Assembly (NCBI RefSeq): GCF_026341775.1
Contig: NZ_JAPEOB010000001.1
Coordinates: 3,038,001 to 3,102,000, forward strand
Length of the DNA: 64,000 bases
Source of the DNA: Streptomyces sp. NBC_00654
GTDB taxonomy: Bacteria; Actinomycetota; Actinomycetes; Streptomycetales; Streptomycetaceae
Direction of reading: 5' to 3'
In this document: positions 47,580 through 61,718 of the stretch, one piece after another
Layout of the letters: each line of letters opens with the position of its first letter
Position numbering within the stretch: position 1 is the stretch's first letter
The notes under the pieces: generated by a model
Seen by the model: the letters and a program-made list of their open reading frames with translations, nothing else
What the model was told of the DNA's origin: nothing
The model's database searches: none
Translations under genes and position numbers: made by a program

Positions 47580-48416
47580 TCACAGCAGCGTCAGCTGGGT
47601 CGGGCCGGGCGACCCCTCCCCGGCGGGCCCCGGTGTCCCGGACGCGGCGACGCGGCGGGCGGCGCCCCAGTCGGGCGGCCCGATCCCGAACTCGGTGGCC
47701 AGTTCGTGCACCTGGCGGGTGATCCGGCGCTGGTACCACGTCGGCGCGTACGACCCGTCCGCGTACATCCGCTCGTAGCGCGCCACCAGGTGCGGGTGGT
47801 GCCGGGCGAGCCACTGTATGAACCACTCCCGGGCGCCGGGCCGCAGATGGAGGACGAGCGGGGTGACCGACGTCGCCCCGGCGGCGGCGATCGCGCGGAC
47901 CGTGTCGCGCAGCTGGTCTGGCCGGTCGCCGAGGAACGGGATCACGGGGGCCATCAGGACCGCGCAGCCGATGCCGTTGGCGGTGAGCGCGCGTACGACG
48001 TCGAGGCGCCGTTCGGGGGAGGGCGTGCCGGGCTCCACCGTGCGCCACAGCTCGCGGTCGGTGAAGCCGACGGAGACGGAGACCCCGATCTCGGTGACCT
48101 CGGCAGCCTGCCGCAGCAGCTCCAGATCCCGCAGGATCAGGGTGCCCTTGGTCAGGATCGAGAACGGGTTCGCGTGATCGCGCAGGGCCGCGATGATGCC
48201 GGGCATCAGCCGGTAGCGGCCCTCGGCCCGCTGGTAGCAGTCGACATTCGTGCCCATCGCGATGTGGTCGCCGTGCCAGCGGCGGGACGCGAGTTGCCGC
48301 CGCACCAGCTCCGCCGCGTTGATCTTGACGACGATCTGGGAGTCGAAGCCCAGCCCGGTGTCGAGATCGAGGTAGCTGTGGGTCTTGCGGGCGAAGCAGT
48401 ACACACAGCTGTGCAT
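47580..48416 (-). pseudogene. Rv2578c-type radical SAM gene, truncated at the 5' end
   Basis: The remaining 278 codons start MHSCVYCFARKTHSYLDLD and match the Rv2578c/SPL-like radical SAM family (GFDSQIVVKIN, SILTKGTLILRDLELL). The motif C-x3-C-x2-C lacks its first cysteine: the frame begins MHSCVYC, where CMHSCVYC is expected, and the roughly 60-80 N-terminal residues before it are gone. Without the first ligand the 4Fe-4S cluster should not form, so it is probably inactive. The break joins directly to a tap remnant. Confidence 0.8.
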
Positions 48417-49410
48417 CCCATCCTGGAACGCGCTGGACCCCCGGTTCTGGGATCACGCCGCGCAGCTGTCCCCGGCGGAGCTCGCCCGTGTCCTGGGCAC
48501 CTACGCAACCCGGGTGATGACGCCCCCGGGTCGACCGCCGTCACCAGCCTGGAACTGATGACCGCGCTGCACCCGCCGACCCACGCCGTACGAGACGAGG
48601 AGACCGGCGCCCTGCGGCAGGCCGACACCAAGACACCCGGCTCGCTCGGCACGACCCGGTGGACTGCGCACCGCCTGAGGCCCCCGACGGACACCCGGTG
48701 CTCAACGCGCTGAACCTGCCGCGCTTCCACGTGCGCGGCCCGTCGGAGAAGCTGTTCGAGGAGGCCTACGACTGGGCGCAGCCGATGACCGACGAGGAGT
48801 GCACCCTGCGCTACCTGGTCGGCCTGGACGTGAACATGGCCTTCGCCGCCGGCGCGAACGGGCTGACCGTCGGTCTCGGTGAGCCGACGTACGTCAAGAA
48901 CCCGGTGTTCGACCCGAAGCCGTCCGGCTCGTGGCTGGTCGACCTCTCCCACGTCGACCTGTCCCGCGTGAAGGCGGCAAGGAGTGGGTAGAGCTGGACG
49001 GCAGCCTGCTGCCCTCCCCGTTCACGTACAAGGGCGACCGCCCCACCGGCCCGGCCTGGTACGCGACACCGACCGTCGCCTACGCCCAGGAGCTCGGCTA
49101 TGACGTGACGCCGACCGAGGCGTGGGTACGGTACGACAACGGCCGCTATCTGGACGGCTGGTACCAGCGGCTGCGGGACGCCTACCTCGCCACGATGGCC
49201 GACCTCGGCGTCACCGCCGACCTGTCGCCGGAAGACTTCCTCACGGCGATGGACGGCTACAAGGACCGCGACCCGGAGCTGGGAATCGTCATCACGGCGA
49301 TCAAGGCAACAGTCAAGGGCGGCGTTGGCAAGCTGCGCGAGCCGCCCCGCGGGGAAGGCTGGCGGCCCGGAGAGCGGTGGCGGGCCCTGGAACGGCCGAC
49401 GTGGCGGCCC
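48406..49410 (+). pseudogene. Telomere-associated protein (Tap-like) remnant
   Basis: Translated in three successive frames, the region gives one continuous match to Streptomyces Tap: QLCIPSWNALDPRFWDHAA ... ARVLGTYATRVMTP (frame to about 48530), then ELMTALHPPTHA, then FHVRGPSEKLFEEAYDWA and YLVGLDVNMAFAAGANGL (48659-48991 frame), then PTGPAWYATPTVAYAQELG and GRYLDGWYQRLRDAYLATM (last frame). It starts internally and stops at RPTWRP. At least three frameshifts and both ends missing show it is dead. Tap helps replicate telomeres of linear Streptomyces replicons. The family name is from memory of Tap sequences. Confidence 0.75.
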
Positions 49411-49733
49411 CGCTCGGCGAGCAGGGGCCGCATTTCACCGATCGCACGCGTAATGGTGGAGCGGTCCACGCCGAACCAGCAGGCCAGGACATCGTGCGCC
49501 GTTGCATGGCGGAGGTACACGAGCATGGCCAACAGGCGGTCAATGAAGACCAGCTTGTGCTTGGCTCCGGCACCGATGGCCCGGCGGCGGGGGTGTGACG
49601 TCAACACGGCCTGGTGCCGCTCGTGCAATAACGGGCCGAGTTCAGCGATTACAGCGGGTGTCAGCCCGGCGATCTGCTGGCTACGGATGATTGCTGTACG
49701 CGCCCAGTCCTTTGCCACACGGATCATGATCAA
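49411..49733 (-). mobile_element. Truncated IS transposase (IS5-like, N-terminal part)
   Basis: About 105 residues from MIMIRVAKDWARTAIIRSQQ include the helix-turn-helix region LAMLVYLRHATAHDVLACWF and GVDRSTITRAIGEMRPLLAERG, as in IS5-group transposases of Streptomyces. The frame then runs into the tap remnant, so the DDE catalytic part is absent. The left end of the element may reach about 49850, but no inverted repeat partner remains to prove it. Confidence 0.7.
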
Positions 49734-49793: not shown

Positions 49794-50795
49794 ATGCTGT
49801 GGCTGGTGGGGGAAAGGGGTAACTGGGTCCGGTGTGATCAGCCATACTTTGAAGTGGAAACGCGGAGGGGAAGTGCGAGTGATGCGGGACTGTTGGTGAA
49901 ACGTCGTGTCGGCCCCGACGGGGTACATCTCTTTGACCGTCGCACGGGTTTGAACGTCCTCTTCGATGAGGTCGATGCCCCTCAAACGCAGTGGGCCCGT
50001 GCGCCCCGCCAGGTTTCGATCGCCCTGACCAACGCGTGCGACCTTGCCTGCCCGTTCTGCTACGCGCCCAAGACCGCTGCGGTGCTCGACGCCGAACGGC
50101 TGTGCGCATGGATCGACGAACTGGACGCAGAGGGCTGCCTCGGCATCGGGTTCGGCGGCGGAGAGCCTACCCTCTACCGCCGCCTTCCGCAGGTGTGTCG
50201 TCACGCGGCGCAGCGCACGGGGCTGGCAGTGACGATGACGACGCACGCACACCGCTTCACTCCCCAGTTGATCGATGCGCTGGCCGGATCGGTCAACTTC
50301 GTCCGCGTCAGTGTCGACGGAGCTGGCACCACCTACGAGAAGCTGCGCGGTCGCCCTTTCGCCGAGCTCGTGCAGCGGCTCACCTGGATCGGGCGGACCT
50401 TTCGGTTCGGGCTCAACTGCGTCGTTAATGCTGAAACGTTGCCGGATCTCGACGCCGTCGCCGACCTGGCGGCTTCGGCCGGGGCCGCGGAACTCCTGCT
50501 GCTCCCCGAGCGACCGGCACGCGGACGCCCAGGCTCCACCCCGCACACCGTGGCCGCCCTCCACGAATGGATCACCAACTACCGCGGGCCGGTAGCCCTC
50601 ACCATCGGCGAGGGCGACAGCGGTGCTCTGCCGACCGCCCAGCCGTTGCCAGGCGAGACGGGACTGCGCGCTTACGCCCACATCGACGCCGTCGGAACCC
50701 TGCGGCGCACCTCCTACCACTCGGCCGGCGAACCGGTCGACGACCGTGGCGTTCTCGCCGCGCTCGACTGCCTGCAGGAGAAGGGTGTCGCATGA
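49794..50795 (+). CDS. Radical SAM protein, first gene of a defence-like unit
   Basis: The 333-aa frame has the cluster motif C-x3-C-x2-C in TNACDLACPFCYAPK (Cys82, 86, 89), the SAM-binding GFGGGEPTLYRR, and a partial TIM barrel through VRVSVDGAGTTYEKLRG. There is no SPASM or second cluster domain. The start is uncertain: ATG 49794 has G-rich sequence directly before it, while GTG 49854 or 49896 would leave the conserved part intact and avoid possible IS sequence. It overlaps the next gene by ATGA, so translation is coupled. It does not look like a viperin (no matching C-x3-C-x2-C context), and its substrate is unknown. Confidence 0.8.
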   Translation: MLWLVGERGNWVRCDQPYFEVETRRGSASDAGLLVKRRVGPDGVHLFDRRTGLNVLFDEVDAPQTQWARAPRQVSIALTNACDLACPFCYAPKTAAVLDAERLCAWIDELDAEGCLGIGFGGGEPTLYRRLPQVCRHAAQRTGLAVTMTTHAHRFTPQLIDALAGSVNFVRVSVDGAGTTYEKLRGRPFAELVQRLTWIGRTFRFGLNCVVNAETLPDLDAVADLAASAGAAELLLLPERPARGRPGSTPHTVAALHEWITNYRGPVALTIGEGDSGALPTAQPLPGETGLRAYAHIDAVGTLRRTSYHSAGEPVDDRGVLAALDCLQEKGVA

Positions 50796-51202
50796 AGGTC
50801 TGGTACGGGTACGGGACCGAGCACTCCATGAATCTCGTCATGATTGGCCGGTTCAAGGACGCCACTGCCGCCGAACGAGCCCACGCTGTCATCAAAGAGT
50901 TCACCAAGGCTTTGGAAGCGGAGGAGGAAGCCGGCCGCCTGACTATCGGCGAGCCGGACGACCGATTCAGCGACGAGGTCTTGAAACTGCTGAGCGACCT
51001 CAACATTCACAGCGTCGGACCCCGTGAGCTTGAGCAGTTCCTGTACGACCTCACCATGCGACGCGAGGGCGACTCCATCGTGGTGACCACCGATGAGAAC
51101 GATGTCCAGGCGCTGCTTAAGGTCCTCCTGGACAAGGGGGCCCGCATCGAGGTGTATTCCGCGCACGACTACCCCGGCACCGGCCACGGCCGGGGCGAGT
51201 AG
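50792..51202 (+). CDS. 136-aa protein of unknown function coupled to the radical SAM gene
   Basis: The product starts MKVWYGYGTEHSMNLVMIGR and is a small alpha/beta protein with alternating charged helices (AAERAHAVIKEFTKALEAEE) and two beta-strand pairs (DSIVVTTDENDVQALLKVL, ARIEVYSAHDYPG). It resembles a ferredoxin-like or ACT-like fold by strand pattern, but I recognise no named family. The start overlaps the radical SAM stop, and the STAND NTPase gene begins 16 bp later, so the three genes form a tight unit. It may be the substrate or partner of the radical SAM enzyme. Confidence 0.75.
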   Translation: MKVWYGYGTEHSMNLVMIGRFKDATAAERAHAVIKEFTKALEAEEEAGRLTIGEPDDRFSDEVLKLLSDLNIHSVGPRELEQFLYDLTMRREGDSIVVTTDENDVQALLKVLLDKGARIEVYSAHDYPGTGHGRGE

Positions 51203-51217
51203 GGGGCGAGCGATCCG

Positions 51218-54200
51218 ATGACCGGTCTGGATTGGGAGAAGTTCACCGCGCTGCCAGGAAGCCGCCGGGACAACTTCGAGCTGCTGTGCAGGGGGGCCGT
51301 GACCCACGCATACGCTCGTTACGGTCGCTTCATCGCCCTGGCCCAGCAGCCTGGGGTCGAGTTCCACCTCGACATCGACCAGCCCGCCTGCCCCCTGGGT
51401 GAACCCGGTCGCTGCTTCGGGTGGCAGACCAAGTGGTGGGACATCCCCTCGGGCCGCGCCATCGGTGCCACCCGCCGAGCCGATATCGAGGATTCCCTCA
51501 AGAAGACCGAGAAGCACTTCCCGGGCATCACCGACTTCGTGCTGTGGACCCGGCGCCCTCTCACCACCGGTGACCAAGCGTGGTTCCGCGGTCTGCCCAC
51601 CAAAATGAAGCTGCACCTGGCCACGGAGGTCGAGCTCGACCATCTCCTCGTCGGAGATGCCATCTTGCTGCGCGAGTCCTACTTCGGTTCCCTCGTCCTG
51701 ACCCCGGAGCGTCTGGCCGAACAGCACGAGCGGGCCGCCGCCGAGGCGGGCGAACGCTGGATTCCCGAGGTGCATCAGGCATCGGCTGCCGAACGCCGGC
51801 TTCGGCGGATGCTCGCCGAACCCGACGCGTGGGACGACTTGAGCGACACTCACCACAACATCGCCCGCTTCGAAGCGGCCCTTGATGACGCGGCCATAAC
51901 CATGCCTCCCCCGCTGGCCGAGCAGACCGCGACGATCATCGCCACGGGACGAGACGTCTCCGAACTTCTGCACGAGGCACACCAGCAGATCCGCAACAGC
52001 CAGCCCTCCCCGCTGCTGGGCGCCACCGACCGCACCGTGCCCCCGGCTCCCCTGGCGCAGCCCACCGTGCTTCGGCGGCTGCGGGCCCTGCGGCATCCCG
52101 CCGCGCTGCCGCTGACCAACCTGATCGCCCACATCCGTGACGCCGCCGCTCTCGCTCACCACGTCACCGATCACCTGGCGACCCGACTCGCGGTCGTCAC
52201 CGGCGACGCCGGATTCGGCAAAACACAACTGTCTGCGACGCTTACCGCGCCGACCGCGGCACGCCCCGCCGGTGTCCTGCTCTACGGCAGGCGCCTGGGC
52301 GCCCGACAGAGCCTCGACAACCTCGCCAGTCAGATCACCGTAGCGGGCAAGCCCTTGTCCTCCTTTGAGGAACTCCTTGCCGCCGTCGACGCGGCTGCAC
52401 AGCGCGCCGGATGCCGGCTGCCCATCGTCATCGACGGTCTCAACGAGGCCGAAACCCCTGCTATGTGGTCGCCGTTGCTGAGCAGCCTGCAGGTGACTCT
52501 CAAGCGGTACCCGTCCGTACTCGTGGTTTGCACGGTCCGCGAGGCATTCCTCGACGACACCATCCCCCCCCGGCGTGAACGACATTTACGAGCTCGACGG
52601 ATTCGACGAGGACCTCGACGAGGCCATCGCCCGCTACTTCACCCACTACAAAATCGAACCAGGCGACGCCGACCTACCGCGCGAACTCCTCAGTCATCCA
52701 CTGACACTGAAGATCTACTGCACCGTAGCCAACCGGGAGCGCAGACAGCCCGTCAGTGCTGCGAGCCTGCCCAGCTCCCTCACCGGAATCTTCAGCGCTT
52801 TCCTCACCTTCGCCGCCCGCCGCGTCTACGAACTCATCCCGTCCATCCACCCCAACGACGTCAACCAGGCCCTCGACGCGCTGGGAGACGCCCTGTGGGA
52901 GAAGCAGGCCCGCGATCTTCCCGACACCCAGGCGAAGCAACTCTGCCAGGACACCAATCGCCGCTGGCAGGAAAGCCTTCTCGCCGCACTCGAACACGAG
53001 GGCGTCCTCCTGCGTCACCCGGACGACGTGGGCGGCGCGGCCTGGTCGTTCGTCTACGACCTGATGGCCGGACACGTCGTCGCCACTAGTCTGGTGCGCA
53101 CCCACGGCAGTAGAGGCATCCGCCAGCTGTTGCACGAAGACACCACCACGGCACGCTTCAACGGGACGCCGGAGGAACGCCATCCGCTCGCCACCGACAT
53201 CTTCCAGGCCCTGGCAGGTGTTCTGCCCCGCGCCGGCGCAGCGCAATTGTGGCAGTCCGTTGCCGAACCCCTCCGTCTGCGTGCCCTCCTGCAGTCCGCC
53301 CGGCTCGAAGCAGACCACCTCGACTCCGCTACCGTGGACGCCCTTGCCGCACACTGCGATGACCTCCGGGGAAGAAGCGACATTCTCCAACGGCTTTACA
53401 GCACCCGCGCAGCCCCTCGGCATCCCCTCAACGCGGTCTTCCTCGACCGGATTCTGCGTAACCGCTCCGTCGCCGACCGCGACCTGCGGTGGAGTGAGTG
53501 GCAGCGTGGCCACAGCCGCCGCCGCCGCCTCCTCGTCGACGCCGCCGCCCTGGCCACACGCTGGCGCGAGCATCTGCACCGCGCGGAGTCCGACGGGCTG
53601 CGAGCCCGGTGGCTGATGTGGACGCTGACCAGCACTGACCGTGACCTCCGCGATGCCGCCACGGCGGCCCTGTACTGGTACGGCCGGCGCGACATCAATG
53701 GCCTGTTCAACCTCGCACTGGAAGCGATCACCATCAACGATGCCTACGTCGGCGAACGTATGGTCGCCGCCTGCTACGGCGTCGCGACGGCTCACCCGCT
53801 CCATAATCCGGACCTGGATGCCGCCCTGCCTGACTACCTCGCAGGACTACTGAACGCATACACCGGGGCCGAAGCGACCCACCCCACCTTCCACGCCCTG
53901 ATCAGGTACTACGTCTCCTCAACGTTCGATCTCGCGCACCGCTCGTATCCCGCTACGGTGCCAGACACAGCCGAACTGCCTCTGACTTTCAGCCCAGCAC
54001 CGGCCATCACCCCGCTGGCCGAGGGCGACCCGCGCCGGGATGACGTCAGCTCGACGATCGGCATGGACTTCGGTAACTACACCCTCGGGCGCCTGTTTTC
54101 GGACCGCGACAACTACGACGACTCCCATCCCGGCCACCGGGAAGCCACCGCTGTCGTCCTCGGTGTAGTGCACGCACTGGGCTGGCGCCCTGACCCGTTC

Positions 54201-55178
54201 GACGAGGTGGAACGCCGCATCACCTCAGCAGCCTCCCTCCGGCGTCGCACCTCCGGCGGCCGGACCGACCGCTACGGCAAGAAGTACGGCTGGGTCGGCT
54301 TCCACACCATGGCGGGCATGCTCGCTGACCGCGGCCAGCCACCCGAGGACCTCGAAGTAGATATCGACCCGACCTTCCCCCAGCCCTCTCAGCCGGTCCC
54401 GGTCCCGCTTGGCACATGGACGCTGCGGACCCCAGCCGACGACCTCGAATGGCTGCGCCACGGAATCGTCGACGTGCCGGACGACTTCCTTGCGCCGGCC
54501 CGGCTCGGTGAGGACGAAGGCCCATGGGTACTCGTGCACGCAGAGATCGACACCGAGGATGTGACCACCGGACGCGACGCCTTCGGCCTGTTCAACACCG
54601 TCCTCATCGACCAGGAGAACCTGACCGATCTCCTAGAGGTGTTCGATGCCTTGCCTCACCCCGGCCGAGACACGATCGACTTGCCAACCGAGTATTACGT
54701 CTTCGCCGGCGAGATCCCATGGCACACCCGGTTCGCTGCACCCGAACCTGGACTGACCACCGAGGACCTGTACAGCGGCACACCTCGCTACGACCGGCCC
54801 GACCTCCGCTTCGAGCGGCTGGCCCACCACTTCGTCTGGGAGCCCCACCACAGCAGCCAAAACCAGGCGACCGCCTACGTCCCCAGCAGACCGTTCTCAC
54901 AGGCTTTCGACCTGCGTACTCTCCCGGTCGGCTTCGACCAGTGTGAACCCTCCGGTGCACACGCCGCCCGGTCTTTCGCTGCCCCCTCCGGCTTCTCGGG
55001 AGGACTGTTGTACCTGCGTGCCGACCTCCTTCGACAGTATGCGGCCGGCCGTGCGATCGTCACCCTCTGCTGGGGGGAGCGGCAGATCACGACCGCCTGG
55101 CCCGAAAGACCGTCCGGCGCCTTGAGTGATCTATACCGGGCTTATCAGAACATCTGGCGTCAGGCTAAGCAGCACTGA
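51218..55178 (+). pseudogene. Nuclease-like/STAND NTPase (Avs-like), interrupted by a frameshift at a C8 tract
   Basis: The first part (codons 1-451) has an N-terminal PD-(D/E)xK/Mrr-like segment with Glu48 in GVEFHLDI and a Q-x-K motif Gln70-Lys72 in CFGWQTKWW, then a STAND/NACHT-type ATPase with Walker A GDAGFGKT (329-336), Walker B LPIVIDGLNEAE (Asp406) and VCTVREAF. At 52564-52571 eight C residues shift the frame; removing one C continues into VNDIYELDGFDEDL and a further ~868 residues of helical C-terminal sensor-like region ending at 55178. Joined, it is about 1,319 aa. The layout matches Avs-type anti-phage NTPases. It may be inactive, phase-variable or a sequencing error. The gap 55179-55404 holds no supported gene. 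Confidence 0.75.
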
Positions 55179-55404: not shown

Positions 55405-56454
55405 ATGAGCAAGCCCGATGGCAGGAAGACGAAGCGCCACCACCACACCGTGCCGCGCTTCTACCTGCGACGTTTCGCAGCGCCGGACAGCCGCCTCCTA
55501 CGGGTGCCCATCGATGGCAGCGCTGCCCGCCTCGTGGGGGTGGGCGACGCTGCTGTTCACAAGGACTTCTACTCATTCAGAGGACCAGACGGATCCCTTG
55601 ACGATGTGGTCGAAAACCAGCTCTCCGTTGTGGAGGACGCAGCAGCTCCTGTTCTGCGAAGGGTTGTAGACGAGCGCCGATGGCCTCTGTTCGGGGATGA
55701 CCGCGAGATCATGGCCCTCTGGGTCGCGCTTCAGTACCTGAGGGTCCCCGCTCACCGAAAGGCCGGGAATGAGGTCACCGACCACTTGGTCAAGACCACG
55801 ATGGCGATGGGCGGTAAGCCCGGCCTGCGGAGTCGGATGGAGGAGTTGGCGAAGGGCCCCGTCGCTGACGACGAAGTCGAGCGTGCATGGGCTGAGGTGA
55901 GCGACTTCTCGAACTATGAAGTTCGATCCGACAACGCGGAACATCTCAGCCTGATGGGGATGATGATCCCGGAGATAGCTCTGTTGCTGATGAGCCGGAC
56001 GTGGGTCTTGGTGAGGTTCAGCCGGAAGACGCTTATTACCTCTGACCATCCTGTTGTGCAGATCTGGGACCCCTCGGTACCGGATTGGATTGGCCAGGGC
56101 ATGGCGACTGTCCCCGCCGTCTGTCTGCCCCTCGATCGGCGCGTCGCTCTGTTGATGTTGCTTCCTGGCGGTGCGCCGGACCGCGAGACGACGCCTACCG
56201 TGGCGATGGCGCGCGATCTCAATCAACGAGTGGCGGCCAGCGCGCGAGGCGCCGTCTTTCACCATCCTGAGGACGACCTGGAGGGCATCGTTCTTCCGGA
56301 ACCGCGTTTGAGGGAGATGCGTATCAGCGGAGGCCCGGCAGGTTTTCTCCTCCCCGACGGTCCGTCCGAGGAGTTCAAGGCCACCATGAGCGAGGCTCCG
56401 GAGCCCCCCGCTACCGCCAGAGCACCTCGACGCGGTCCGGGTTCCACACGTTGA
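55405..56454 (+). CDS. DUF4238 domain-containing protein
   Basis: The 349-aa product has the DUF4238 hallmark HHHTVPRFYLRRFAAPDS at residues 12-29, followed by VHKDFYSFRGPDGSLDDVVE and ITSDHPVVQIWDP. Function is unknown; such proteins are common in mobile islands. GC content is visibly lower than in the core region. The C-terminus overlaps a short minus-strand frame. Confidence 0.8.
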   Translation: MSKPDGRKTKRHHHTVPRFYLRRFAAPDSRLLRVPIDGSAARLVGVGDAAVHKDFYSFRGPDGSLDDVVENQLSVVEDAAAPVLRRVVDERRWPLFGDDREIMALWVALQYLRVPAHRKAGNEVTDHLVKTTMAMGGKPGLRSRMEELAKGPVADDEVERAWAEVSDFSNYEVRSDNAEHLSLMGMMIPEIALLLMSRTWVLVRFSRKTLITSDHPVVQIWDPSVPDWIGQGMATVPAVCLPLDRRVALLMLLPGGAPDRETTPTVAMARDLNQRVAASARGAVFHHPEDDLEGIVLPEPRLREMRISGGPAGFLLPDGPSEEFKATMSEAPEPPATARAPRRGPGSTR

Positions 56455-57955: not shown

Positions 57956-59595
57956 TCATGAGTCCGCCGGCCCGGCTTGCAGGGCGATGATGGCGATGTC
58001 GTCCCGGCGGTGGTGGAGAGGCGGCAGAAGGCCGCGGATCACGGAGGGCAGCGGCAGGTTCCGGCGGGCCAGCGCGTCGGAGCGTGTCCGCAGCCGCAGC
58101 AGGTTGTCACCGATGTCCGTGTCCGGCGTCTCCACCAGCCCGTCGGTGTAGAACACCAGGGTGTCGCCCTCCCGCAGGTCTGCGTGGAGGATGGCGCGGG
58201 TGAGGTTGTCAGTGACGCACAGGGGCGGGTCCGGGGCCGTGGGGCCGTGCAGATAGCGCGACGGCGCGTCCGCCGGGATCAGCAGGGGCGGCGGGTGCCC
58301 GGCGTTGGACAGGACGATGTGCCAGCCGCCGGGTGTCTGGCGGCGCAGGACCGCGTGAACCGCCGTGACCATCGATGGACTGTCGAGGGCCTGCACGATG
58401 CGGTCGAGACGGCTCAGGGTGACCGCCGGACTGGCGGCCGGGCCGCTGTCGTACACGAGCCCTCTCAGCATGCTGTTGACCCGTGCCATCGCCATGGCCG
58501 CGTCGAGGTCGTGCCCCGCGATATCGCCGATCGACAGGGCGAGGGCGTCGGCGGAGAGCCGGACGGCGTCGTACCAGTCCCCGCCGACCTCCGCCGCCGA
58601 GTCCGCCGGATGGTAGAGCGCGGTAATCGTGAGACCGTCGATGGACGGCGGCGCCGCCAGGAAGCTCTGCTGCAGCGCAAGCGCCTTGCCACGGATGCTC
58701 TGCAACTCCATCGTCCGGCGCAGCGGCCCACTCATCTGCTGGAAGACGTCCCGCAGCAGCGAGAGGTCGGCCTCGTCCGGGGGCGGGTTGCCCCGGCAGG
58801 TCGCAATCGTCGCCAGAGCGACGGTCCGGCCGTCCACCACCACGGGCACCAACGCCACACCCGTCGCCCCGGCCTCCCGCAGCCACCGCACGGAAACGTC
58901 CGAAAGCCCGTCCCCGGGAGGCCCGTCGGGCGGGAAGACCAACAGCCGGGCCTCCTGGCTCTCGATCGCCCGCTGGGCGACCGGACCCAGCACAAAATCG
59001 GCGTCCAGCGGGGGCAGGGAAGGCAGCCCGGGGGCAAGCCCCACACGCTCCTGCGACGCCGCGGCCGGTACCCCGGAAGGCCGCACACCGGCCTCGACGC
59101 CGTCCACGACACGGAAGATGGCCACCGCATCAGCGAGCTCGGGCACAACAGCCGCCGCCGTCGTCAGAAAAGCCTCCGAAAGATCGCGGGCCGCAGGCAC
59201 CGCCGCCATACGCGCCAGCAACTTCTCCCGCATCCGGCCGCGCCAGTGCTCCTCCGCGTCGGTGGCCGTTCCAACAAACTCCACCTCACCGTCCTCGTCG
59301 ACAACGGGCGCAGCGATGATCTTGACGTGGCGGAAACGGTCGACCGCACCCTGACGATCGTGTCGAGAGGGGACCGCTGCCGCGTGGCCCTGCGCCACGC
59401 CCGCTGGAACCAGTCCCGGTCCTTGGGATGCACGGCATCCAACCACGAGGTGTCAGCGCCGGGAGTCCACAGCTTCTCGGCGATCCCGCCCCCGGACAAC
59501 ACGGTGACGACACCGCCGGGCGACATCACCCACACCGACTGCGGCACGGCCCCCATAAGCGCCTGGTACCGCCTGAGGAGACGCTCCTCGTTCAC
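57956..59595 (-). pseudogene. PAS-GAF-PP2C (SpoIIE-type) phosphatase with a frameshift
   Basis: From GTG 59595 a PAS domain reads NEERLLRRYQALMGAVPQSV ... DTIVRVRS, then near 59335-59350 the frame changes to DRFRHVKIIAAPVVDEDGE and continues through a GAF-like part and a PP2C phosphatase domain (EVGGDWYDAVRL, SIGDIAGHDLDAAMAMA, YTDGLVETPD, HRRDDIAIIAL). The two frames join within one expected PAS domain, so one base has been lost or gained. The second part (start within 59446) could still make phosphatase without the PAS sensor. Family members dephosphorylate anti-anti-sigma factors. Confidence 0.75.
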
Positions 59596-60206
59596 GGCCG
59601 CCCCCTCCGCCGCCGGGCCGACGACCCCGAGGACCAGGCCGACGGCATGGCACCGCCTGCGGCCGTCTCCGATCGCCTCCGCCCGCCCCACTCTCCAGAC
59701 GGCGCCAGTGGATCATCACCACTCATTCTCCGATGATCCCCCGCATCCCGGACATCAGCACACCCAGGCGCTCCGCGCGACCACCGAGCCTCCAGCGGCC
59801 GACGGCACCGCGGTATGTACTGTTCGGACGCAGAGTGCGCTCGCGGGGGCAGGCAGCCGGAAGCGAGGACACACCCCTGAGCACGACCGGGGGGCTCTCT
59901 CGAAAGCCACTGCGTGCGGGCTCTGGGGACACGCCTGACTACGGGGCGCTTCTTTTACCGTGCCTGCCAGACCGACTGCCACCGTCAGGACGCGCGGTGC
60001 CGGACGGGCGTGCGGTCCAGGGAAAGGACGAGCCGACCGAAGGGGGCCTTCTCCTCGTCGTAGCCCGAGACCCGCGGCCACGGAGAGCGCCTCCCACCGC
60101 CCAGCGCTGCGGCGCAGTGTTCCACCAAGATCCTGAGGGCGTCGGGAGGGTGTCTCTATGTCCTTCGTCAAGGATGTGGTGTCTGGTGTGCGGGTGTTTG
60201 GGATGG
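59596..60206. other. 611-bp region without supported gene
   Basis: Open frames exist on both strands because of high GC, but none shows a recognised family or a convincing start. It separates the phosphatase from the IS110 remnant and may include target or remnant IS sequence. Confidence 0.4.
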
Positions 60207-61420
60207 TCATGCGGCGAGGGTGACGGTGGGGCTTCTGGACTCGTAGAAGGTGCCGTCGCGGAGCATGGCGAAGAGGACGCTGATGCGTTGGCGGGCGAGG
60301 CGGAGCAGTGTCTGGGTGTGGGTTTTACCGCGGGCGCGTTGGCGGTCGTAGTAGGTGCGGGAGCGGGGTCGGCGTTCATGCAGGCGAGGGCGGAGAGGAA
60401 CATGGCGCGTTTGAGCTGCCGGTTTCCGCCTCTGGGTGCGTGTTCGCCGTGGATCGAGGTCCCCGAGGATCTGGTGGTGGGGGCGAGGCCGGCGTAGGAG
60501 GCGAGGTGGGCGGCGCTGGGGAAACCGGTGCCGTCGCCGACGGTGACCAGGAGGACGGCTGCGGTCCTGACTCCGACTCTGGGCATCGAGGTCAGGACCG
60601 GGTGAAGAGGGTGGGCCTCCAGCAGGGTGCTGATCTGGGCTTCCAGTGCCCGGCGCTGGTTGTGGACCGCGGCGAGGGAGGCGGCCAGGGACGGGATCAC
60701 GATGTCGAGGGTGCCCGTGCCGGGAACGATGTCGGTCTGCTCGTCGAGAGCGTCGAAGACGTCGTCGATCAGCCGCGCGGCCATGCGCGGGGCTTTCGGT
60801 CGGATGAGTTCGACGAGTCTGCGGCGGCCGGCCTTCCTGAGAGAGGCTGGGGACCCGTATCGCTCGAGGAGCCAGGTGACGGCGGGGTGGTCGAGCCGTG
60901 GGCCCAGGACGCGTTCCAGGGAGGGGTGGAACTGGGTGAGCAGGCCGCGTATCCGGTTGGAGGTGCGGGTCGCCTCGGCCGCGAGGTCCTGGTCGAAGCC
61001 GGTCAGCACCGTGAGCTCGGCGGTGATCTCGTCGGTCAGCTCCAGCGACCGCAGCGTGTGAGGCATCGTCCGGGCCGCGTCCGCGATCACCGCGGCGTCC
61101 TTCGCGTCGGTTTTCGCCTCGCCGGATAGAGATCGGCGATCCGCCGCATCGCGAGTCCGGGCAGGTAGGCGACCTCGCAGCCCGCGTCGCGGGCCACGGT
61201 CAGCGGCAGGGCGCCGATGGACGCGGGCTGGTCCACGATCACCAGGACGGTGCCGAACTTGGTCTTGAGCTTGTCGAAGACGGCCCGCAGCTTGGGTTCG
61301 CTGTTGGGCATCGGCTTGTCGAAGACCTTCTTCCCGGCCGGGGTGAGCCCGTGGCCGTGGTGGGCCGTCCTGCCGACGTCCATCCCGAGGAAGACGCCCA
61401 CGCCTTCGATGTCGAACATC
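60207..61420 (-). mobile_element. IS110-family transposase, decayed
   Basis: From ATG 61420 (MFDIEGVGVFLGMDVGRTAH) the product shows the DEDD-type N-terminal domain, a frameshift near 61120 (YPARR in one frame, GEAKTDAKDAAVIADAARTM in the other), then the Transposase_20 region VLTSMPRVGVRTAAVLL and GLAPTTRSSGTSIHGEHAPR with the conserved Ser. A second frameshift near 60372 leads to SRTYYDRQRARGKTHTQTL and RDGTFYESRSPTVTLAA before the stop at 60207. Two frameshifts indicate a dead element. IS110 elements lack inverted repeats, so ends are not defined. Confidence 0.85.
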
Positions 61421-61718
61421 GCACCCTCTCCAGGGTCGTTGACCATGCCGGCCATGGCGGTGGCACCGTGCTCGCGCATCCACGTTATGCAGACCTGCCG
61501 CCCACGTCTGTGCCCGGCATTGCGCCGGACCGGGCGGTGGCCGGGTCTCTCATCAGCGTCTCCGACGGCACCCCACAGGCCCGGCGACACCACCCCCCCC
61601 CAGGTCATCCGTTCGACAGAGGGGACACAGTCATACCGGGCCCGGAGGCCAGCGGCCCCATTGCAGGACCGCGAAAACCATAACGGGGGGCAGTGCCGGG
61701 GGCCGATGCCATTTGGGA
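61421..61718. other. Intergenic region upstream of IS110 remnant
   Basis: About 300 bp with a C-run (CCCCCCCCC near 61592) and no supported gene. It lies between the IS110 remnant and the putative immunity gene. Confidence 0.4.

Follow-up and report, generated by a model that had tools for sequence, protein, structure and literature searches.

A 64,000-nucleotide stretch (hereafter the window; G000:C1:3038001-3102000) of the 9.6-Mb genome of Streptomyces sp. NBC_00654 contains three genes, coding for a radical S-adenosylmethionine (SAM) enzyme, a 136-residue protein of the DUF6375 family, and a large STAND NTPase with a predicted N-terminal nuclease domain, which almost certainly constitute one functional unit. 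We consider it very likely that the unit is directed against phages and that it probably represents an undescribed type of antiphage system. All three genes are arranged head to tail on the forward strand. The genes for the radical SAM enzyme (49794..50795) and the DUF6375 protein (50792..51202) overlap in the tetranucleotide ATGA at 50792-50795, which supplies the stop of the former and the start of the latter, and the STAND gene follows after a gap of 15 bases, extending from 51218 to 55178. An earlier note on this DNA, which had singled out these genes, rightly recognized the coupled spacing of the first pair but gave the second gap as 16 bp. The true start of the radical SAM gene probably lies 25-35 residues downstream of 49794, because 20/22 relatives align with it only from residue 18-38, the other two aligning from residue 7-8.

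The case for a single unit comes primarily from linkage. A scan of one-per-species genomes with the window DUF6375 protein as query, which finds close relatives only, recovered 22 loci; in every one of these, the DUF6375 gene is preceded by a radical SAM gene and followed by a STAND gene, all in the same orientation. Intact copies include L005 of Streptomyces sp. SID13726 and the plasmid-borne L046 of Synechococcus elongatus PCC 11801. The radical SAM and DUF6375 genes show an exact four-base overlap in 18/22 loci, and the STAND protein is encoded by a single open frame of about 1320-1450 residues in 20/22, with that of L009 being split and that of L020 being ended by the contig end. The four loci nearest to that of the window come from Streptomyces, and several of the 22 are metagenome bins. 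Going by the record titles, the loci span ten phylum-level groups: Actinomycetota, Bacillota, Pseudomonadota, Cyanobacteriota, Schekmanbacteria, Nitrospirota, Planctomycetota, Verrucomicrobiota, Cloacimonadota, and delta-proteobacterial lineages. The shared gene order across all 22 loci is far beyond chance.

This linkage is independent of which gene serves as the probe. We separately probed 392 genomes of the same genus with a STAND profile, PF19902, and a radical SAM profile. Matches to the STAND profile (1e-10) were found in 17/392 genomes, 11 of them full or near-full (two matched in two frames, and one match ended at 1180 of 1343); PF19902 and the radical SAM profile (E 1e-40) each recovered 11/392 genomes, and these are the identical 11. 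The first two STAND and five radical SAM candidates per genome were scored, such that absence elsewhere rests on this first ranking. Neither a DUF6375 nor a radical SAM match was obtained with the same probes in the six remaining STAND-matching genomes, five of which have distant Avs2-type matches of 51-95 bits and one (G747) a remnant of 114 bits. The chance of two random 11-genome sets being identical is about 1e-21 if the genomes are assumed to be independent, which they are not wholly. The co-occurrence in other genomes that the earlier note had proposed as a check is seen with each gene in turn. On plasmids, DUF6375 was found in 16 of 72,556 records, and 16/16 have an annotated radical SAM gene; those in the Deinococcota are among these plasmid-borne copies. 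The STAND query matched 70 plasmid records; among the best 40 of the 70, only the top 15 match from the N-terminus (two of them containing an IS3 transposase), and 15/15 belong to the 16 DUF6375 records, with the other 25 starting at residue 284 or later and scoring 165 bits or less. Finally, the pairwise divergences of the three proteins are correlated (r of 0.70, 0.83, and 0.87; 0/2000 permutations reached the observed value) over the 15 loci common to the three alignments, L003, L004, L006, L009, and L018 being omitted for want of a radical SAM start codon, and L020, L024, and the window for their absence from the STAND alignment.

The genus also harbors a second branch of the system (L027-L035 and L043), with DUF6375 proteins 32-42% identical to that of the window and the same gene order. 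The STAND remnants in G747 (L036, L044), which are about 80% identical and lie on two contigs of this genome, itself devoid of a DUF6375 or radical SAM match, are decayed copies. In G761 (L057, L058), DUF6375 is matched in two frames, covering positions 1-16 and 17-132, and the radical SAM match contains two TGA codons in G473 and one in G761. These anomalies of G473 and G761 may be broken copies, sequencing errors, or matches extending past the gene end.

The STAND protein connects the unit to the Avs family, bacterial counterparts of the eukaryotic NLR immune receptors. In the window, its gene looks broken by a reading-frame shift: the profile of intact relatives matches 51218-52573 and then 52566-55169 in the next frame, with the second part (1146 bits over positions 449-1340) picking up where the first ends. 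Since the two matches meet at 52566-52573, the change is placed in or next to a run of eight C at 52564..52571, and may be a true frameshift or a sequencing error. The first part (51218..52573) comprises a nuclease domain of PD-(D/E)xK type spanning roughly residues 1-160, a helical linker, and the NTPase, and the second (52575..55178) the remaining NTPase region, a helical region, and a divergent sensor-like C-terminal region. The STAND core has its Walker A lysine at K335 and its Walker B aspartate at D406 (L005 numbering), and in the N-terminal domain E21, E48, and Q70 are invariant in 21/21 sequences, with position 72 being K in 18 and R in three. The predicted domain combines the fold, the acidic residues, and the (D/E/Q)xK motif of the PD-(D/E)xK nucleases, and structural comparison of the model places it closest to Avs4. 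Of the features that the earlier note had advanced for the window protein, the residues E48 and Q70-x-K72 and the likeness to Avs are borne out, and the nuclease fold is predicted. The second STAND part matches the PADLOC Avs2 model at 3e-62.

Two Avs types are among the closest known systems. With Avs2 (AVAST type 2; PDB 9o4e) it shares a homologous STAND core, the profile match having an E of 2.6e-71 over positions 322-966, and five intact relatives score 318-428 bits against PADLOC PDLC02164; the best stretch of these matches ends at model position 933-998 of 1504 (protein residue 904-965), and a second stretch exists. However, against the NCBIfam Avs2 model NF041813, with a cut-off of 1000, four intact relatives reach only 199.5, 208.5, 292.3, and 306.2 bits, with 58 and 137 bits for the two parts of the window protein. 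Moreover, Avs2 is a single-gene system, whereas the present STAND gene is linked to those for a radical SAM enzyme and DUF6375. The likeness to Avs4 (AVAST type 4; PDB 8dgf) lies in the predicted N-terminal nuclease domain; in contrast, the core is Avs2-like, and the Avs4 model NF041815 (cut-off 1500) gives 16.9 bits in one of four relatives and no match at E 0.01 in the other three. We interpret the unit as an Avs-type system to which a radical SAM-DUF6375 cassette is linked.

The radical SAM protein is recognized by PF04055 (1.7e-15; 58.1 bits against a cut-off of 29.5), and its CxxxCxxC motif (residues 82/86/89) and GGGEPT motif are invariant in 18/18 sequences, in which the only invariant cysteines are C82, C86, C89, and C135. 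Its best NCBIfam models are StsB (4e-14) and viperin (1.8e-13, 50.3 bits), both far below cut-off, and a profile of the family retrieves SkfB (6efn; 1.4e-16) as its best match in the PDB. By such profile comparisons, the enzyme lies between the peptide maturases and the viperins. Like the SkfB/StsB-type maturases, to which these best matches point, it has a short protein encoded next door; yet it differs from them in being without conserved auxiliary-cluster cysteines and in that its neighbor is a folded 136-residue protein, not a short precursor peptide. The prokaryotic viperins (pVip) have in common with it a radical SAM core that carries just one cluster motif, but here the enzyme is paired with DUF6375 and a STAND nuclease.

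The DUF6375 protein is matched by PF19902 at 1.2e-46 (159 bits against a gathering cut-off of 27.5), and the family includes at least 2900 protein clusters. Its structural model has a predicted local distance difference test score (pLDDT) of 80, falling to a mean of 39 for residues 1-10, and shows the order strand, helix, two short helices, strand, strand, helix, strand. This predicts an alpha/beta fold with at best a ferredoxin-like arrangement; structure searches with the model gave no significant match, the fold matches being at background level. Conservation was evaluated over 144 sequences, a partly redundant and hence weighted set comprising the window protein, those of the 22 scan loci and 11 further loci, and 110 single-domain proteins (from the best 120 of 2900), with L047 (truncated by an insertion sequence), L031 (split between frames), and ten tandem proteins being left out. 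Invariant in this set are M1, W4, E10, H11, S12, G19, F21, A27, G116, A117, and H125. Over nine blocks drawn by us, conservation peaks at residues 1-12 (3.70 bits), with 116-128 (3.64 bits) and 13-22 (3.54 bits) close behind and the rest at 2.2-3.0. A conserved, poorly ordered N-terminal tail beside a dedicated radical SAM enzyme has the appearance expected of a modification site, but could just as well form half of an active site together with H125. The ten tandem proteins (P0001-P0010 among the best 120 of 2900) carry the domain twice in about 240 residues; position 10 carries the only EHS motif in 9/10, and no such motif is matched in 1/10.

We propose, with confidence in the explanation as a whole falling somewhat short of even, that the three genes form an Avs-type antiphage module in which the radical SAM enzyme and DUF6375 are a maturation or licensing pair. 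The proposal builds on features obtained by computation, namely the linkage of the three genes, the resemblance of the large protein to Avs in architecture, its predicted nuclease fold, a radical SAM cluster motif unaccompanied by conserved auxiliary-cluster cysteines, and the strong conservation of the tail. The large STAND protein would act as both sensor and effector: its C-terminal part would bind a conserved phage protein, the NTPase would then oligomerize, and the N-terminal Avs4-like nuclease would cut DNA, thereby halting infection. The radical SAM enzyme, whose gene is probably translationally coupled to that for DUF6375, would modify the latter at its flexible N-terminal tail (MKxWxGYGSEHS) by SAM-dependent radical chemistry, and the sensor, as we infer, would need the modified DUF6375 as a partner or gate. 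Whether the enzyme acts on DUF6375 seems to us evenly poised. We advance its action on the tail in particular more tentatively, because the lead of the tail in conservation over block 116-128 is narrow, and only slightly more doubtful is an NLR-like sensor that becomes active only once that tail has received a new post-translational modification from the enzyme.

Several observations weigh against this proposal. No auxiliary-cluster cysteines of the SPASM/twitch kind are conserved in the C-terminal part of the 18 radical SAM sequences, because just one invariant cysteine exists beyond CxxxCxxC, and most SPASM peptide maturases possess such cysteines. The viperin model scores nearly as high as the best maturase model in NCBIfam (50 and 52 bits), and the best PADLOC model is pVip (3.2e-18, 64 bits). 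Block 116-128 of DUF6375, at 3.64 bits, is narrowly below the tail; the tail might combine with the invariant H125 in a single catalytic or metal site, and the low tail pLDDT may merely reflect an alignment of 23 sequences. The correlated divergence signifies joint inheritance, not contact. In the 16th DUF6375 plasmid record, that of Deinococcus peraridilitoris, DUF6375 is followed by an IS3 element, and this record is not among the STAND matches listed. Strong defense genes occur within the 8-kb flanks at 7/22 loci, a count without a matched control and hence supporting evidence only.

One alternative is a viperin-like role, in which the enzyme would generate a modified nucleotide to block the synthesis of phage RNA or DNA, with DUF6375 binding or sensing the nucleotide and the STAND nuclease forming a second arm. 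This appears unlikely: the viperin score is well short of the curated cut-off of 180 (NF038283), SkfB outscores viperin in the PDB search (63 versus 47 bits), the unit is without a kinase, and the fold matches of DUF6375 are at background level only. We give comparably little credence to DUF6375 being itself an enzyme or metal protein, in which E10-H11-S12 and S123-A124-H125 would meet at one end of the sheet to build the active site, its substrate or cofactor coming from the radical SAM enzyme, even though E10, H11, S12, and H125 are invariant. A ferredoxin-like topology would indeed put the start of strand 1 beside the end of strand 4, and in five tandem proteins the EHS tail is confined to the N-terminus, and an intact SAHDYP-like motif to the vicinity of the C-terminus. 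Somewhat less probable again is that DUF6375 is a decoy, adaptor, or inhibitor binding the sensor or a phage protein, with the radical SAM enzyme acting elsewhere, for instance on the STAND protein or a phage component. The strict linkage is silent on who modifies whom, and other Avs types have accessory genes; against this stand the four-nucleotide coupling, which joins the enzyme to DUF6375, and the BFVD viral structures, none of which matches DUF6375 at E 0.001 or better. That the genes are clustered by chance or for housekeeping, or amount to decayed mobile DNA, and have no role in defense is highly improbable despite the frameshifted window copy, the nearby transposase genes, and the uncontrolled count of defense neighbors, given a gene order kept across ten phylum-level groups, a scattered presence (11/392 genomes), plasmid carriage, and Avs homology.

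Among the texts consulted, our literature search found no paper naming DUF6375 and no link of a radical SAM enzyme to Avs. The nearest published idea is the FtsH ternary vWA-MoxR systems, which likewise have a radical SAM effector component, likely to modify a peptide effector, but are built around a vWA-MoxR-FtsH core (PMC7159879); that paper mentions STAND/NACHT NTPases for others of its systems, and the word Avs is absent from it. Were tail modification indeed to license an Avs nuclease, the licensing module proposed here would be an undescribed AVAST type. To our knowledge, it would also be the first case of radical chemistry in an NLR pathway. That the radical SAM enzyme is nearly inseparable from this Avs branch, both in ten phylum-level groups and among plasmids, suggests a need of the branch for radical chemistry, and the unit would supply a functional context for DUF6375. 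Being compact and carried by small plasmids in some strains, it is directly testable.

The defense genes in the flanks, counted over 116 neighboring open reading frames (ORFs) of which 19 were scanned singly, are BrxC at L014, with PglX directly upstream, DpdE and DrmMI at L024, DpdF at L010, GajB at L011, BilD at L016, AriA/Old at L022, and a type I methylase at L023. The copy on a Vibrio plasmid is flanked by an NYN-domain gene and a SIR2 gene. The earlier note's description of the window locus as an island of decayed mobile DNA holds in part, in that a transposase remnant (HTH_Tnp_4; 49257-49733, reverse strand) and an IS110-type transposase ORF (59939-61480, reverse strand) lie near the unit. 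A second radical SAM ORF (47580-48416; PF04055 2.6e-8) lies about 1.4 kb upstream on the opposite strand. Directly 3' of the STAND gene is a forward-strand DUF4238 gene (55405-56454; PF14022 1.3e-41) with a weak match to the PADLOC model DUF4238-Pers (5.9e-6), a candidate defense family, followed on the reverse strand by genes for an S-adenosyl methyltransferase (PF04672; 57055-57864) and a GAF-SpoIIE protein (57959-59446).
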